Assembly (NCBI GenBank): GCA_903642325.1
Contig: CAHJWM010000014.1
Span: forward strand, 1-64,000
DNA length: 64,000 nucleotides
Reading direction: 5' to 3'
DNA from: Myxococcales bacterium
Lineage (GTDB): Bacteria > Myxococcota_A > Polyangia > Polyangiales > Polyangiaceae
Positions 54,953 through 64,000 of the stretch are shown one piece after another (within the stretch, counting starts at the first letter, position 1; each line of letters begins with the position of its first letter). Below the pieces are notes generated by a model. It saw nothing but the letters and a program-made list of their open reading frames with translations. It did not search any database and was not told where the DNA came from. The position numbers and the translations under genes are program-made.

Positions 54953-57900
54953 TCAGTCCGGCAAGGCCTCGGGATCCAATTCCAGCACGGGCGTGTCGAG
55001 CTTGGTGCGCCGCATGACCTCGTTCACCAGTGAAGGAAAGTGACTGGCCGCGTAGGTTGCCGCGGTGGACGCGCCAACTGCGGTAGCCCAACCGAGGGGG
55101 CCGACTGGACGACAACCGAGCAAGTGACTCAAACCCGGCGTTTGCACGATGCCCGCGAGCAACGCGGCCGAGGTCAGGCTCGTGATCAGAACCGGTCGAC
55201 TGAAACGCCCCGAGACCAGCGTTTGACCGAGTTGAGATCCAACTAGCGCCAGCAGCCCAATCGTATTGGCGTTGGCTCGCGTGCCGGTGAAACGCCCGAT
55301 CACCCATGCCGAGCTGGCCCCCAAGGTAGTGACGACGGCACGAGCCGCGATCTCGCGGTTGAGCGCTTTTCCGAGGGACGCCTCCGGGCCTTCTTCAGCC
55401 AGCGAGCTCAACGCCGCGGCGGACGGCGGACGGAGCGCGATAGCCATTGCCGGTGCCACGTCCGTGAGCAAGTTCACGAGCAGAAGCTGACGAGCGTTCA
55501 ACGGAGGGCGACCGCTGATCAGGCCGGCTCCGAGCGTGAAGCCAATTTCGCCCAGATTTCCTCCGATCAGAATGGACACGGCGTCCCGCACCGACGCCCA
55601 CATCGCCCGGCCCTCGATCACGGCTACCACCAGCGTTTCGATGCGCTCGTCGGTGAGCACGATGTCGGCGGCGGCCCGCGCCGCGGAGGTGCTGCCCTCA
55701 CCGATGGCGATGCCCACATTCGACAGGCGGATTGCCGGAGCGTCGTTGGCTCCGTCGCCGACCATGGCCACGACGCGGCCAGCGCGCTGCAGTGCCCTCA
55801 CCACACGCACCTTCTGAGCGGGCGTGACCCGGGCAAATACGCCAATGGCTTTGATTCGGCGATCGAGCTGGTCGTCCGTCAGGTCCGTCAGCTCGCTGCC
55901 GCTGATCACGGCGCGGCCGTCGAGCAAATGGACCTCGTGTGCAACGGCCTCCGCCGTGCTCGGGTGATCGCCGGTCAGCATCACTACTTCCACGCCGGCC
56001 GCCCGCAGATCAGAAACCGCCTGCGCCGACGAAGACCGTACGGGATCGCTGAAGGCGATGAAGCCGCGAAACATCATCCCTTCCAGCCGGCTCAAGTCGG
56101 ACGCGTCCTGCGGCACGGATTCGCGCTCGGCCACCGCCAGCACGCGCAAGCCACGTCGGCCGAATTCGCGCGCCTTGGCCAGTAATTCAGCGCGGAGCGC
56201 GCGATCGAGCGGGATGCGCTCGGCGCCGCGCCGCCAGTGCTCGGCCATCGGGATGATCGCTTCTGGCGAGCCCTTGACCGCCACCAACGAGCGCTCGGCC
56301 GAACGATAGCGCACCGCCTGGTAAGCGCGCCCGGCCGCGAACGGCAGCTCGTCATCGCGCGCCATGCCCTGCTCGTGGGCCGTGATTTCACGCGCGGCGC
56401 CGGCACGCGTCAGCGCCGCGTCCGTCGGGTCTTGTGCGGTAGGTCCCAGACGCAGGTCGGGCGCGGCGCGGAGCGCGGCACCGAGCACGCTCCTGCCCGT
56501 GTCTGATAGCGCCGCGATCGCCGTCATGTCCTCGCCGTCCGACACGAAGCTCAGCTCGACGCGGCCCTCGGTCAGCGTGCCAGTCTTGTCGATACACAAG
56601 ACATCGACGCGCCCGAGCGCTTCGATGCTGCGCGCGTTGCGCACGAGCGCGCCGTGCTTCGATAGCCGGTCGGCCGCCGCGAGCTGGGCCGCCGTAGCCA
56701 AAAGGGGTAGGCCTTCGGGCACCGACGCCACCGCCAAGCTCACGCCCGTGCCCACGAGGTCTTCTAGCTTTCGCCCGCGCAAGAGGCCCGCCCCGATCAC
56801 CCCGATGCCCGCGCCCAACGCGATCGGACCGGTCAGGTTAATCAGGGACTTCATTCGTCTTTCGACGCCGCCACGGCTGGGATCGCGTTTGGATGCGCTC
56901 GACCCGCGGCGTGCCTCGGTCTCATCACCGATGGCGACCACCACGGCCGTGGCGCGCCCGGCCGCCAGCGCCGTACCCTCGAACAGCATCGAGCTGCGAT
57001 CGGCTACATGGGGCTCGAACGAGGTTGCCACGCTCTTTTTCACAGGCAACGACTCGCCGGTCAGACTCGAGGCGTCGACCTCGAGCGACTCGGCTTCGAT
57101 CAGACGGCAGTCTGCCGGCACGACGTCGCCCGCCGCCAACACGATCACGTCACCGCGCACGAGCTCGCTGGCGTCCACCTCGTTCAGCTCTGCACCGCGG
57201 CGAACGAGGGCGCGCCGACGCGCCCCGCGTGACAGTTCCCGGATTCGACGCTCGGTGCGAAAGCGTTGAACGCCGCCGATCACCGAGTTGAGTACGACCA
57301 CGCCGCCCACCATGGCCGCGTCGCCGAAAGAGCCCACGGCAGCCGACAGGCCGGCGCCGGCGGCGAGCAATGGTGCCAGCGGGTTGAAAAGCTCGTCCGT
57401 AATGTTTTCTCCGAGCTCGGCCACGGCGGAGCGGCGGGCCAGCGGTCGGTGACGGCGGCTGAGAGCGTCCCGGCGCAGCAGGCCCTCGCGCGAGGTAGCG
57501 AGCTTTTTCAACACGCCCTCGGCTTCGAGGGCGTGCCAAGGAGTGCGGTCTCGGGGCGCGGGCAGCGCGCGGCGCGCAAGCTTCACCGACCCGCGCACGC
57601 CGTTCAACATCGAGATCACGGAGGCAGCGTTGACGACCGCGATCACCCGCCGACCGGTCAGCGGCAAGACGCCGCCCGCCGAGACGAGTGCGCCCAGCGT
57701 AGCCGCGCCCAGCGCGATGTTTACGCTTTGCTTGGATACTTGGCGCGCGACTACGCAGGCATGAATCAAGAAGCGCACGTCCGATAAATCATCGCGGCAG
57801 ATGATATGCGCGCCCCAGGGCGTCACTTCCCCCTCGCGCATCAGACCGATGGCGCAGTCGGCCGCTGCCAAGCCTTTGGAAGCGCCCGTACCAACCACGC

Positions 57901-59350
57901 AGACCGTGCGCCCTTCACGCTGCAAGCGGCGGATCCCGCGCACGAAGCCATGGCCTTCGGGCACGGTATCGTCGGCGGCGATGCCTTGCAGGACGGCTTC
58001 GTCGTTGGAAGCGATCACCACGCGCATTTGGGCTTCGTGGGCCGCCGCGATCAGCTCGTCTATTCCGGTCTGGGGGATCAGATCGACTTCGGCGGCAGCC
58101 ACGAGAGCACTGCCGTGCATCAAGCCGAAGACGATGCCACCGCGAGCCCCCAAGCCCGGAGTATGTTGAGAAAGCTCCGGGGGCACGGCTACGTCGAGCA
58201 CGCCGAGCGGCGCGAGCGTATAGTCGCCCGCACGCCTGAGATCGATCGGCCGCTCCACGTCGAGCAACTGACCAATCACGCGCCGGGCTTCCACCTCGTC
58301 GCCCTCACCGGTGACCACCACGTTGCGGATTTCGAGTCGGTCGCGCGCCACTAAGTCTCCCTGCAGGACCAAGCAGTCGATGCGGTCGAGCTTGCGGAGG
58401 GCCTCTGGGTTCACGACCAAGGTTTGACGCTTGGAGAGCGCGCGACCGAGGTCCGCCGCAAAGGCATCACGACCCAGCCGCGCGGGCGTCGGTAAACCAC
58501 CGAACAGCGCTGCCACCGCGCGTTGGACGCTGCGCGTGCTCAAAAAGCTCACCGCAAAGCCCCCGAGCGAGACGACCCAGGCTCGGTCAGCGTACTCCTC
58601 GATTGGCCCGCGCGGCAGCGCGCGGGGCCGGGCCTCGGGCAGGACCTCGTCCAGACGATGTTCGACCTGCGACTGGCACAACTCGGCCTCGCGCTGTGCC
58701 CAGATCCGTGAGCGCGATTCAGCCTCGGCAAGCAGGGTCAGTTTGTGCAAGCCCTCCACGAACGCGCTGCCTGGCCGTTGCGCCGCGCCCTGCGCCACGG
58801 CCGCGGCCACGTGCAGCATCAGTTCGGCTCGGAGCGGGCCGAGCCGCTCCTCGGCCACACGGCGCAGGCGATCCGTCGACTGCACGACTGCAACCAACGC
58901 CGCGAGTGTGCCGCCCACGCGCGAGGCCGGAATCGGCGAAAACCTCAAGCCCAAGCCCACGACCACGCCTAAGCTATCCGCCAGGAGCCCGAGTCTCAGG
59001 CGCTCCGCCGTCTCGCGATCCGCGGGGTGCTCCCACGGCTCGTCGCGAAATGGCGCCTCTTGCACGTCGGCTATGCGCTCGGCCGCCTCCACGACCTCCA
59101 CTAGCTCGGGCAGCGTGAAGGCGTCTGGCTCGAACGATACGATCACCCGTCGGGAGTGGGGATTGATTTCGACCCATTCGACCCGCGTGAGCAACTTGAA
59201 GCCGAGCTCGGTCTGACGAGCGAACGTCGCAAGCTCGCTCGCCGACAGCTCGCGGAATTCGATGTGCGCGCGCGTGCGGCCGATCCAGGAACGGCGTGAG
59301 CGCTCGGAAAGGAGCCGACGGAGCGACCCGAACAAGCCTGAGACTCCCAT
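54953..59350 (-). CDS. Giant tandem P-type ATPase (CtpH/CtpI-like), N-terminal half degenerate
   Basis: A 1465-aa membrane cation transporter. The N-terminal ~620 residues look like an inactive P-type half: a metal-binding-like ferredoxin fold without CxxC (about 28-90), a DKTGTLT-like place near residue 328 that reads LQGDLVARD, and a degenerate GDGxND region. The C-terminal half is complete: TGES at 764-767, the ion-site motif PEGLP at 878-882, the phosphorylated Asp921 in DKTGTLT, GDGANDAP with Asp1199, and NLLTD near the end. PEGLP resembles P2-type (Ca2+-like) pumps. The arrangement matches mycobacterial CtpH/CtpI. The transported ion is unknown. The start at 59350 lies 4 bases after the pip gene. 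Confidence 0.9.
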   Translation of the reverse strand: MGVSGLFGSLRRLLSERSRRSWIGRTRAHIEFRELSASELATFARQTELGFKLLTRVEWVEINPHSRRVIVSFEPDAFTLPELVEVVEAAERIADVQEAPFRDEPWEHPADRETAERLRLGLLADSLGVVVGLGLRFSPIPASRVGGTLAALVAVVQSTDRLRRVAEERLGPLRAELMLHVAAAVAQGAAQRPGSAFVEGLHKLTLLAEAESRSRIWAQREAELCQSQVEHRLDEVLPEARPRALPRGPIEEYADRAWVVSLGGFAVSFLSTRSVQRAVAALFGGLPTPARLGRDAFAADLGRALSKRQTLVVNPEALRKLDRIDCLVLQGDLVARDRLEIRNVVVTGEGDEVEARRVIGQLLDVERPIDLRRAGDYTLAPLGVLDVAVPPELSQHTPGLGARGGIVFGLMHGSALVAAAEVDLIPQTGIDELIAAAHEAQMRVVIASNDEAVLQGIAADDTVPEGHGFVRGIRRLQREGRTVCVVGTGASKGLAAADCAIGLMREGEVTPWGAHIICRDDLSDVRFLIHACVVARQVSKQSVNIALGAATLGALVSAGGVLPLTGRRVIAVVNAASVISMLNGVRGSVKLARRALPAPRDRTPWHALEAEGVLKKLATSREGLLRRDALSRRHRPLARRSAVAELGENITDELFNPLAPLLAAGAGLSAAVGSFGDAAMVGGVVVLNSVIGGVQRFRTERRIRELSRGARRRALVRRGAELNEVDASELVRGDVIVLAAGDVVPADCRLIEAESLEVDASSLTGESLPVKKSVATSFEPHVADRSSMLFEGTALAAGRATAVVVAIGDETEARRGSSASKRDPSRGGVERRMKSLINLTGPIALGAGIGVIGAGLLRGRKLEDLVGTGVSLAVASVPEGLPLLATAAQLAAADRLSKHGALVRNARSIEALGRVDVLCIDKTGTLTEGRVELSFVSDGEDMTAIAALSDTGRSVLGAALRAAPDLRLGPTAQDPTDAALTRAGAAREITAHEQGMARDDELPFAAGRAYQAVRYRSAERSLVAVKGSPEAIIPMAEHWRRGAERIPLDRALRAELLAKAREFGRRGLRVLAVAERESVPQDASDLSRLEGMMFRGFIAFSDPVRSSSAQAVSDLRAAGVEVVMLTGDHPSTAEAVAHEVHLLDGRAVISGSELTDLTDDQLDRRIKAIGVFARVTPAQKVRVVRALQRAGRVVAMVGDGANDAPAIRLSNVGIAIGEGSTSAARAAADIVLTDERIETLVVAVIEGRAMWASVRDAVSILIGGNLGEIGFTLGAGLISGRPPLNARQLLLVNLLTDVAPAMAIALRPPSAAALSSLAEEGPEASLGKALNREIAARAVVTTLGASSAWVIGRFTGTRANANTIGLLALVGSQLGQTLVSGRFSRPVLITSLTSAALLAGIVQTPGLSHLLGCRPVGPLGWATAVGASTAATYAASHFPSLVNEVMRRTKLDTPVLELDPEALPD

Positions 59351-59354
59351 CCGG

Positions 59355-60308
59355 TCAGCTTCCCGCAAAGCGGTCGGTTGCGGAAATCAATTCGTGCACC
59401 GTACCGAGCTCGTACGCGGAATGTCCGGAATCGGGTACGACACGGAAGTCGGCTTCGGGAAACGCGCGAGACAGCTCCCAAGCACTCTTCAGTGGGCAGA
59501 CTACGTCGTATCGACCTTGAATGATCACGGTCGGAATATTGCGGAGGCGCGTGACGTCATCGAGCAGCTGGTTCTCGTGCGCGAGAAAGCCGCGGTGCAC
59601 GAAGTAGTGGCACTCGATGCGAGCGAACGCGAGACTGAACTCGTCGCCGGCGCAGCTCTTGATGTACTCGTCGTCCTGCAGCAGATTGCTCGTGCTCGCT
59701 TCCCACACGCTCCACGCGCGCGCGGCTTCCTGACGCACGAACGCATTTTCGGAAGTGAGGCGGCGGTGATAAGCCGAGATCAGGTCACCACGCTCGGCCA
59801 ACGGAATGACCGCCAAATATTTTTGCCATGCGTCGGGGAATAGCAAGCTAGTCCCGTGCTGATAAAACCACTCGAGCTCCCAGCGCCGCAATAAAAAGAT
59901 GCCGCGCAGCACGAGCTCCGTCACGCGCGACGGGTGCGTTTCCGCGTACGCGAGCCCGAGTGAGCTGCCCCATGAGCCACCGAACACGAGCCAACTGTCG
60001 ATGCCCAAGTGTAAGCGTAGCGCCTCGATATCCGATACCAAGTGCCACGTCGTATTGTCTACCAATGAGGCGTGCGGCTTGCTCTTGCCGCAGCCCCGTT
60101 GGTCGAAGAGCACGATGCGATATTTTTCGGGGTCGAAGAAGCGACGCTGCCTCGGGCTCGTGCCTCCACCCGGTCCACCGTGCAGCAGTACCGCCGGCTT
60201 GCCGCGTGGGTTACCCGACTCCTCGAAGTAGATCGAGTGCTCCGGCGACACGTCCAGGTAGCCGGCACGGTAGGGCTGAATCTCGGGGTAGAACGTGCGC
60301 CGGCTCAT
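59355..60308 (-). CDS. pip: Proline iminopeptidase
   Basis: A 317-aa alpha/beta hydrolase of peptidase family S33 that removes N-terminal Pro from peptides. The oxyanion motif HGGPGGG near residue 43, FDQRGCGKS, the nucleophile elbow GGSWGS near residue 111, the catalytic Asp region GRYDVVCP and the late His in DSGHSAYE are all present. The length is that of the bacterial enzyme. It lies directly upstream of the P-type ATPase (4 bases), so the two may share a transcript. Confidence 0.93.
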   Translation of the reverse strand: MSRRTFYPEIQPYRAGYLDVSPEHSIYFEESGNPRGKPAVLLHGGPGGGTSPRQRRFFDPEKYRIVLFDQRGCGKSKPHASLVDNTTWHLVSDIEALRLHLGIDSWLVFGGSWGSSLGLAYAETHPSRVTELVLRGIFLLRRWELEWFYQHGTSLLFPDAWQKYLAVIPLAERGDLISAYHRRLTSENAFVRQEAARAWSVWEASTSNLLQDDEYIKSCAGDEFSLAFARIECHYFVHRGFLAHENQLLDDVTRLRNIPTVIIQGRYDVVCPLKSAWELSRAFPEADFRVVPDSGHSAYELGTVHELISATDRFAGS

Positions 60309-62240: not shown

Positions 62241-64000
62241 TCAGAGCCAAGGATTCACGGTCGAGCGCGGCCGATCGCCGGCAGCGTGCCTCGACACGCG
62301 CACGACGACATGCACGAGGCACAGGCCGCATAAGAAAAAAAGCCCGTAGCCCAGCGAAACGCGCGCGGCCGCGATGAGTGGACTTTGCCCGGCGAATGCC
62401 CAAATGTAATTGGCCATCAGCAGGAACGCGGCGCCAGGCAACGCGTACTGAACGCCGAGCTTCGCTACCTCTTCCACACGCACCTGGCCGGTCGCGAAAC
62501 GAAGCACCAATACGCAGCTCATCACCAAGATGGCCTTCGCCTGAAACAGCAGTGCCGCCGTCACCTGCAACCACGCGCCAGCGGCTTCATCGGACGCCGC
62601 AAAGCCCGGCACCCGCGGGCCACCCAAGAAAACGAGCGAGATCACGCCGCTGACCAAAATCAGGTGACTCCACTCGGCAAGAGTAGTGCGGGCTTGACGC
62701 TGCTCGGTCGTCGCCGAGTCGGCGAGCGCCGCGCGGAGCGCGCCGGGCGTGCGCGACAACACCGGGACCAAACCCAAGAGCAACAGGACCAGGACCGCCA
62801 GCGACATTGGGCTCGAGAACGCGAACCACTGCCAGGGCCATCCGCCTTGCGCGGCCAGAATGTCGTCCGAACGCAGGCTACCCGACAGCATTACGGCGCA
62901 GGCCATAGCGACCAACACAGGCGATTGAAACAGCGCGCACGACAGAACGTGCCGAAGCCCGCGCGGCAGTGAGAAGCGCCGCCCGCGCTCCCGCCCGCCC
63001 ACGACGAGCGCCGTGGCGCAGAGGGCGGTGAGAGAGCCCAAGAATAAGGCCGGCAAATCCAGCTCGCGGGCCCAAATCGTGCGTCTCATGGCCAAGAGCG
63101 TGAGCCAGGCGCTGTCCGCAATCAGCACGAAATAGGGTAGCGGCGAGGTCGGCAACTCGCGCAGCAGAGTCCGTGCGAAACCCAATGGCTCGAGCCCTTG
63201 GCGCGCGGAGCGATAGAACGGGGGCTTGTCGCTATCGCGGAGTCGCGTCGCCAACTGCGCCTCGAACCAGCACAAGGCGCGCCCGAGCGGTGAAGTGAGC
63301 AACAAGAGCGCCGCCACGGCGAAGCCGAGCAGGGTGGCCGCAGGTACCAGCTCCGACGGCGAGCCCGGTTGGAAACCCGCCACGTCGAGCGCGAAAGTTG
63401 CCGGCGCCGTTTCGTCACCTCGGCGCACGTTGACATGCGAAAGACGGGCGCGGGGCGGAGGAATCAGGTCGGAAGCACCGGTCAAACGCAGCCCGTCGAG
63501 CTCCAAGAGCGCATCCCCCGGCAGCAAGCCGGCGCGCGCGGCCCGGCCCGCGGGGTCGAGGCTATCCACCAAGAGCACGTCGCGCTCCTCGGAGCGCGCG
63601 ACGACCATACCCGCGAATTCAGCAAAGCGTGTCGCCTCCGCCTCGTGCGCCGCCAACGCAGTCTTCGAGATTGATACTGGATTCACGTCCAAGACCACGC
63701 CTTCGAGGGTCCCGCGCACGGCTGGCGCCCCGCTCTCACGCGCGGCAAAGGAAGCGCTCGTGGCGCCACGAAAGGTCGCGTGCACGGCGTCTCCCGCACC
63801 GCAAAACTCGCGCGCTAGCTCCGCGCTCACCGTGACCGAAATCGAATGCGGTTCGGTTACCGCCGCCGTGGCCACGATCGTGACGTCGCGCAAGGGCGAT
63901 TGACCTGGGCGAAACACATCGCCGTGAAAGTTGAGCTTTGCCGGGCGCCCTTCGGGGAAGCCCGAGCCGTTCAGCGTCAAGCGATCACCGACCTCCAGCG
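62241..64000 (-). CDS. Ig-like/PDZ domain fused to a NuoH-like (complex I subunit 1) membrane domain, partial at the window edge
   Basis: The frame is still open at base 64000, so the N-terminus lies outside; ~586 residues are visible. From the N-terminal side: an IPT/Ig-like strand set (GDRLTLNGSGFPEG and following), a PDZ-like domain around VDSLDPAGRAARAGLLPGD, then about eight hydrophobic helices. The membrane part resembles NuoH: AGAWLQVTAALLFQAKAILVM, VEEVAKLGVQYALPG and LAEWSHLILVSG match its late helices. The conserved loop NRAPFDLPEAE reads SRTPGALRAAL, so the Asp and Glu residues are lost. HyfC/EchB-like hydrogenase subunits belong to the same family and are alternatives. It is convergent with the acyltransferase gene. 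Confidence 0.72.
   Translation of the reverse strand, partial: LEVGDRLTLNGSGFPEGRPAKLNFHGDVFRPGQSPLRDVTIVATAAVTEPHSISVTVSAELAREFCGAGDAVHATFRGATSASFAARESGAPAVRGTLEGVVLDVNPVSISKTALAAHEAEATRFAEFAGMVVARSEERDVLLVDSLDPAGRAARAGLLPGDALLELDGLRLTGASDLIPPPRARLSHVNVRRGDETAPATFALDVAGFQPGSPSELVPAATLLGFAVAALLLLTSPLGRALCWFEAQLATRLRDSDKPPFYRSARQGLEPLGFARTLLRELPTSPLPYFVLIADSAWLTLLAMRRTIWARELDLPALFLGSLTALCATALVVGGRERGRRFSLPRGLRHVLSCALFQSPVLVAMACAVMLSGSLRSDDILAAQGGWPWQWFAFSSPMSLAVLVLLLLGLVPVLSRTPGALRAALADSATTEQRQARTTLAEWSHLILVSGVISLVFLGGPRVPGFAASDEAAGAWLQVTAALLFQAKAILVMSCVLVLRFATGQVRVEEVAKLGVQYALPGAAFLLMANYIWAFAGQSPLIAAARVSLGYGLFFLCGLCLVHVVVRVSRHAAGDRPRSTVNPWL

Follow-up and report, generated by a model that had tools for sequence, protein, structure and literature searches.

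The membrane subunits of complex I are usually regarded as strictly energetic. One such subunit is known to be reused outside complex I, in the DAB2 complex (DabA-DabB; PMC13144422). The nuo clusters of Anaeromyxobacter have been described as ordinary (PMC2330069), and the main text of a paper on microbial PDZ proteins (PMC6411480) does not mention NADH dehydrogenase. In the literature searched, we found no description of a NuoH with a PDZ or lipoprotein head, nor of an H/L/M remnant of complex I in myxobacteria; the statement in the initial annotation of the present locus that no complex I subunit of such layout had been described agrees with this search.

The gene considered here, H*, lies at the end of the window, by which we mean the whole stretch of 64,000 nucleotides analysed. 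The window is located on contig 14 (C14) of the draft genome of a Myxococcales bacterium (G000, hereafter the window genome; 5.83 Mb, 140 contigs, 98.97% complete).

Layout of H* and its family

H* is read from the minus strand, with its stop at 62241. Its 5′ end lies beyond base 64000, the open frame extending to C14:64580, with start candidates at C14:64112, 64145 and 64229. Its features are the following:

62241..64000, minus strand: H*, decayed headed NuoH-like gene, 585 of about 600-660 residues inside the window
63669..63998, minus strand: predicted Ig-like beta sandwich of the head (model residues 1-110; AlphaFold2)
63384..63665, minus strand: PDZ domain and leading helix (model residues 112-205; Pfam profile, AlphaFold2, alignment)
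62280..63359, minus strand: membrane domain with NuoH/ND1 fold (model residues 214-573; PF00146, AlphaFold2, Foldseek, VIA-align)
62724..62756, minus strand: former acidic loop between TM5 and TM6, SRTPGALRAAL (sequence; alignment column table)
62244..62255, minus strand: C-terminal NPWL (sequence motif comparison)

The AlphaFold2 model of H* (pLDDT 75, pTM 0.56, 9 sequences) consists of a beta sandwich, a PDZ-like domain and a helical bundle, the membrane part having the NuoH fold that the initial annotation had proposed. Pfam NADHdh matches this membrane half with 58 bits (E 1.3e-15; curated cut-off 27), all PDB matches listed for the model by Foldseek are complex I subunit 1 (E from 6e-7), and VIA-align superposes the model on solved ND1/NuoH structures with Z up to 17 over 253-294 residues. 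The VIA-align matches are confined to the membrane part (model residues 211-546), so that structure search gave no fold for the head. Among PDB profiles, chloroplast NdhA matches best, followed by the PDZ domains of DegP and of the Aquifex S2P. In the tree, the headed H proteins form a single clade (support 100/100) separate from other NuoH, and HycD and HyfC of E. coli branch outside the NuoH clade to which this family belongs; the HyfC-like identity also suggested for H* is therefore abandoned. Because the decayed sequences form long branches in the trees, the order in which they are placed is unsafe.

Alignment with NuoH shows that H* has 7 of the 25 conserved charged residues, compared with 23-24 in its intact relatives. 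The acidic loop NRAPFDLPEAE is replaced by SRTPGALRAAL, as had been read from the sequence: R209 and P211 are retained, and D213, E216, E218, E220 and E228 are lost (E. coli numbering). The quinone-site and proton-entry residues are gone from H*. In E. coli NuoH, E71 and E228 are required for activity (PMC9696053). Among the decayed forms E71 is retained in 6/16 and E228 in 0/16, H* itself having an equivalent of E71 and lacking E228. K274 and R286, together with the periplasmic Q183, G258, G259 and P263, are retained in nearly all decayed forms. Beyond the eight helices of NuoH, H* has an extra C-terminal helix and the terminal NPWL, where all 19 intact relatives examined have H-[LV]-N-P-F-[LI], and most decayed forms N-P-x-[LI]. 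This N-P-F-[LI]/NPWL tail resembles a PDZ ligand, though it is probably on the cytoplasmic side.

The family has a constant layout in the alignments, with a hydrophobic stretch, an invariant Cys, a beta domain, a PDZ domain and the membrane domain. In H* the likely lipobox Cys, which follows the hydrophobic stretch upstream of the head, is encoded at C14:64056-64058, outside the window. This arrangement suggests that the H proteins are likely lipoproteins, whose heads would lie on the periplasmic side. PDZ_6 matches H* alone weakly (E 0.0029) and is matched by 14/14 heads of the family alignment (best E 4.6e-9); the Gly of the carboxylate loop is invariant in the family (EFAGMVV in H*). None of the 14 heads matches a Pfam TIG/IPT profile. 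The PDZ domain announced by the initial annotation thus stands; its IPT domain is not confirmed by profile, the AlphaFold2 model predicting an Ig-like beta sandwich in this part of the head.

Orthologues and the second complex I of relatives

Searched with the whole H* protein, 33 of 39 related genomes yield relatives, and the head alignment is matched, in a few cases weakly, in 153/153 genomes of the order (Polyangiales-like; Polyangiaceae MAGs). A scan of genome contigs with the five closer heads as query, the wider head-only alignment being too diverse, gave 8 loci; loci similar to H* come from Polyangiaceae and Myxococcales MAGs. The headed protein is single-copy among orthologues across the order, and a PHB_acc_N regulator, a sigma factor and an anti-sigma factor adjoin its gene in most family genomes. 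Since the orthologues have the same layout and mostly the same neighbours, an assembly error or chimera, the caveat attached to the fusion when it was first noticed, is ruled out. No conserved partner gene was found beside H* in the window's genus. Likewise, the further complex I- or hydrogenase-like subunits sought past base 64000 did not materialize, no complex I or hydrogenase gene being present in the 17-kb locus that reaches beyond this point.

Several other genes of the region were recorded. Divergent from H*, C14:63847-66226 holds genes for a SUKH/SMI1-like protein, a PHB-accumulation regulator and a sigma factor, whose order is conserved across most of the family. At 54953-59368, on the minus strand, lies a P-type ATPase-like ORF of 1471 aa with a DKTGT motif and a long N-terminal half. 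An ORF of 669 aa in the locus of the H* contig (L004:9376-11385) contains three DsbA-like thioredoxin segments in a row (CPFC three times).

On contig 43 the window genome carries an ordinary nuo cluster, which includes a NuoH distinct from H*. Its one NuoD and one LMN set both belong to this ordinary complex I (complex I-1), which has its own NuoH and is retained in nearly every genome examined; no NuoB/C/D/I partner beyond complex I-1 was found in the window genome. The ordinary NuoH (C43:11626-13410; L005:8626-10410; 594 aa) has about 200 residues with several hydrophobic stretches between a GPNR motif and GLLHPAADGLK, and a similarly long NuoH1 is present in many family genomes.

Of 80 family genomes, 20 encode an intact headed NuoH, scoring 369-388 bits with NADHdh. 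Eighteen of the 20 also have a second NuoD with a non-hydrogenase score; in the remaining two, G138 and G139, an extra L/M/N set is present and no second NuoD was found in the assemblies. Among the other 60 family genomes, a second NuoD of this type was confirmed only in G113 (Fisher p 1e-14), the x-type of NuoD being checked by tree in four genomes, and the remaining second NuoDs belong to genomes with a stand-alone NuoH2. The second complex of G010, G012, G022 and G023 has ABCD at one locus and LMN at another, joined by IJK in two cases, and neither H nor E, F or G was found beside the x-type ABCD or LMN loci of these four genomes. As no other NuoH is left for the second complex, the headed NuoH is taken as its H, and the place of the intact headed protein in a second complex I of 11 subunits (complex I-x), as its subunit H, is well supported. 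The "different partner complex" imagined in the initial annotation can thus be recognised in an evolutionary sense, as complex I-x of relatives, but this complex is absent from the window genome itself. In G010 (intact; L065:11078-12796) and in G021 (decayed; L072:6811-8583), the gene immediately downstream of headed NuoH encodes a zinc-ribbon protein whose YbjN-like match is weak.

Two further subunits of complex I-x carry additions. The x-type NuoM begins with a signal peptide followed by an N-terminal domain with a weak Ig-like match, and the x-type NuoL has an insert of 116-220 residues between TM6 and TM7, after E. coli residue 194, which neither E. coli nor the other complex type has. 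The NuoL insert would be periplasmic if the usual topology (N-terminus out) holds, and the added domains of H, L and M are probably all periplasmic.

The other type is a different second complex with a stand-alone NuoH2, found in G020, G031, G081, G088, G094 and G096. It forms a separate clade for H, L and M, and is not clearly separate for D. NuoH2 was considered as a source of H* and is ruled out by its position in another clade. This 11-subunit complex (L079, L111, L112, L113; L085-L087 in G020) is encoded in one operon or split, depending on the genome, and coexists with a decayed headed NuoH.

Loss of complex I-x and selection on the remaining subunits

A tree built from three neighbour genes requires 5 changes of the intact state and nests the decayed forms of G084, G112, G147 and G021+G133 among intact forms. 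In these four lineages ABCD and N are gone, no second NuoD was found, and H is retained together with decayed L and M subunits (L* and M*). Of these, G084 has a closed genome; L-M-N is intact in its close relative G142. Judged from this tree, the second complex was lost several times; four supported pairs speak for the independence of the losses, a number at which the sign test does not reach significance (p 0.125). Complex I-x retains the proton-path residues E144, K229, K342 and K399 of NuoL and E144, K234, K265 and E407 of NuoM, most of which have disappeared from L* and M*. H*, L* and M* are in tandem in G017, G020, G088, G094, G114 and G127, and on separate contigs in G031. Neither L* nor M* was found in six genomes of the window's genus (the window genome and five congeners), an absence that is not absolute for the window genome because its assembly is in 140 contigs. 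We read the window genome as the end state of the loss, in which H alone is left without the rest of the second complex.

Residues are not retained evenly in what remains. For columns invariant in the intact forms, retention in the decayed forms is highest in the periplasmic loops (64%), lower in the helices (46%) and lowest in the cytoplasmic loops (30%; Mann-Whitney p 6e-7, regions delimited by approximate E. coli boundaries). In six decayed pairs dN/dS ranges from 0.05 to 0.55 in head and membrane part alike (NG86; dS above 1 in some pairs), with values of 0.05-0.07 in one pair of congeners, and on these sequence comparisons purifying selection acts on the H* form. The head is more constrained than the membrane part in 4 of the 6 decayed pairs; the intact pairs have a membrane part constrained as much as the head, or more, and this part is at least as constrained as the head in the pair G020/G094, which has L* and M*.

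Function of H* and known systems

Any explanation of H* has to accommodate its computed fold and orthology, the match between intactness and complex I-x genes, the loss of residues, the periplasmic bias and the purifying selection. The origin of H* from complex I-x is well supported, and H* is probably an orphaned, decayed subunit H of this complex, retained as a periplasmic scaffold or adaptor. The ancestral complex I-x would have had 11 subunits (ABCD, H, IJKLMN) without the NADH module, its H bearing a lipid-anchored Ig-like and PDZ head, its M an N-terminal domain and its L an insert between TM6 and TM7. After each loss of the complex, the headed subunits would have remained and shed quinone-site and proton-path residues, H being the sole headed subunit remaining in the window's genus. 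Held by the lipid anchor and 8-9 helices, the head would sit on the periplasmic side of the inner membrane, and its PDZ groove may bind the C-terminal tail of an envelope partner. H* would thereby serve as a scaffold or adaptor, with no electron or proton transfer.

The retained periplasmic surface, which is the best conserved, would also suit an accessory or assembly factor of complex I-1, a decayed paralogue docking on the membrane arm and tethering envelope proteins by its PDZ domain. Complex I-1 is available in nearly every genome examined and a NuoH fold could dock at the place of NuoH, but the face that would contact NuoB, NuoD and NuoI, the cytoplasmic one, is the most eroded. Since the contact sites E71 and E228, both needed in E. 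coli (PMC9696053), are kept in 6/16 and 0/16 cases, and gene order shows no nuo link for H*, we regard such a role as unlikely. The energy-coupling device of the initial annotation would be a still working subunit with another partner, whose bundle carries protons or another ion via changed residues and is gated by the head. Purifying selection on the membrane part, its constraint at least equal to that of the head in G020/G094 and the six residues listed above that nearly all decayed forms retain speak for it. However, the quinone-site and proton-entry residues and the acidic relay are lost, the 7 charged residues left are not complemented by any alternative charge set conserved among all decayed forms, the proton-path Glu and Lys of L* and M* are mostly eroded, and the window genome offers no NuoB/C/D/I partner beyond complex I-1; this proposal is accordingly quite improbable. 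That H* is a neutral relic, a slowly decaying pseudogene without function, would agree with the progressive loss of conserved residues and partners and with a membrane part that varies much between genera. It is very hard to reconcile with an open frame, a head and a C-terminal motif retained across the order, and with dN/dS well below 1 for both parts in all six decayed pairs and at 0.05-0.07 in one pair of congeners, and we consider it highly improbable.

Returning to the scaffold, we lean towards a broader history in which some myxobacterial complex I evolved a periplasmic crown, formed by Ig and PDZ on H, by an Ig-like domain on M and by an insert in L, that served a purpose of its own. 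After several independent losses of the enzyme, the three crown-bearing subunits would have been kept as a non-pumping platform, and finally H alone as an envelope scaffold. If true, this history would provide a clear example from nature of a proton pump put to new use as a scaffold, with headed subunits that outlive their enzyme repeatedly. The graded series from intact through partly to wholly decayed forms would allow the order in which quinone-site and proton-path residues are lost to be traced, and it would suggest that in these predatory, social bacteria of the soil respiration and the cell envelope are connected in a way so far unexplored.

The closest described relative, NuoH/Nqo8/ND1 of complex I, has the same membrane fold and tree position as H*, and the intact headed forms keep nearly all of its conserved charged residues. 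In contrast to it, H* adds a likely lipid-anchored Ig-like and PDZ head, a C-terminal helix and the NPWL tail, has lost its quinone-site and proton-entry residues, and is encoded alone. The 11-subunit complexes I without NADH module (cyanobacterial/chloroplast NDH-1, archaeal Fpo type) have the same set ABCD, H and IJKLMN, no EFG being found at x-type loci, but the x-type genes are scattered over several loci and their H, L and M have added, probably periplasmic, domains. The hydrogenase subunits HycD/HyfC/EchB belong to the same superfamily as H*; those of E. coli (HycD, HyfC) nevertheless stand outside the NuoH clade of the headed family, and H* has no hydrogenase genes nearby. DAB and like complexes combine a NuoL-like subunit with a partner enzyme, whereas here H, L and M, or H alone, have eroded proton paths, added heads and no recognised enzyme partner. 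The PDZ domain of H* resembles the HtrA/S2P type of DegP/DegS and site-2 proteases, but H* has no protease domain and carries its PDZ on a membrane bundle derived from complex I. Compared with these systems, the H/L/M remnant would come close to a new kind of object, and the intact headed form is a new variant of complex I.
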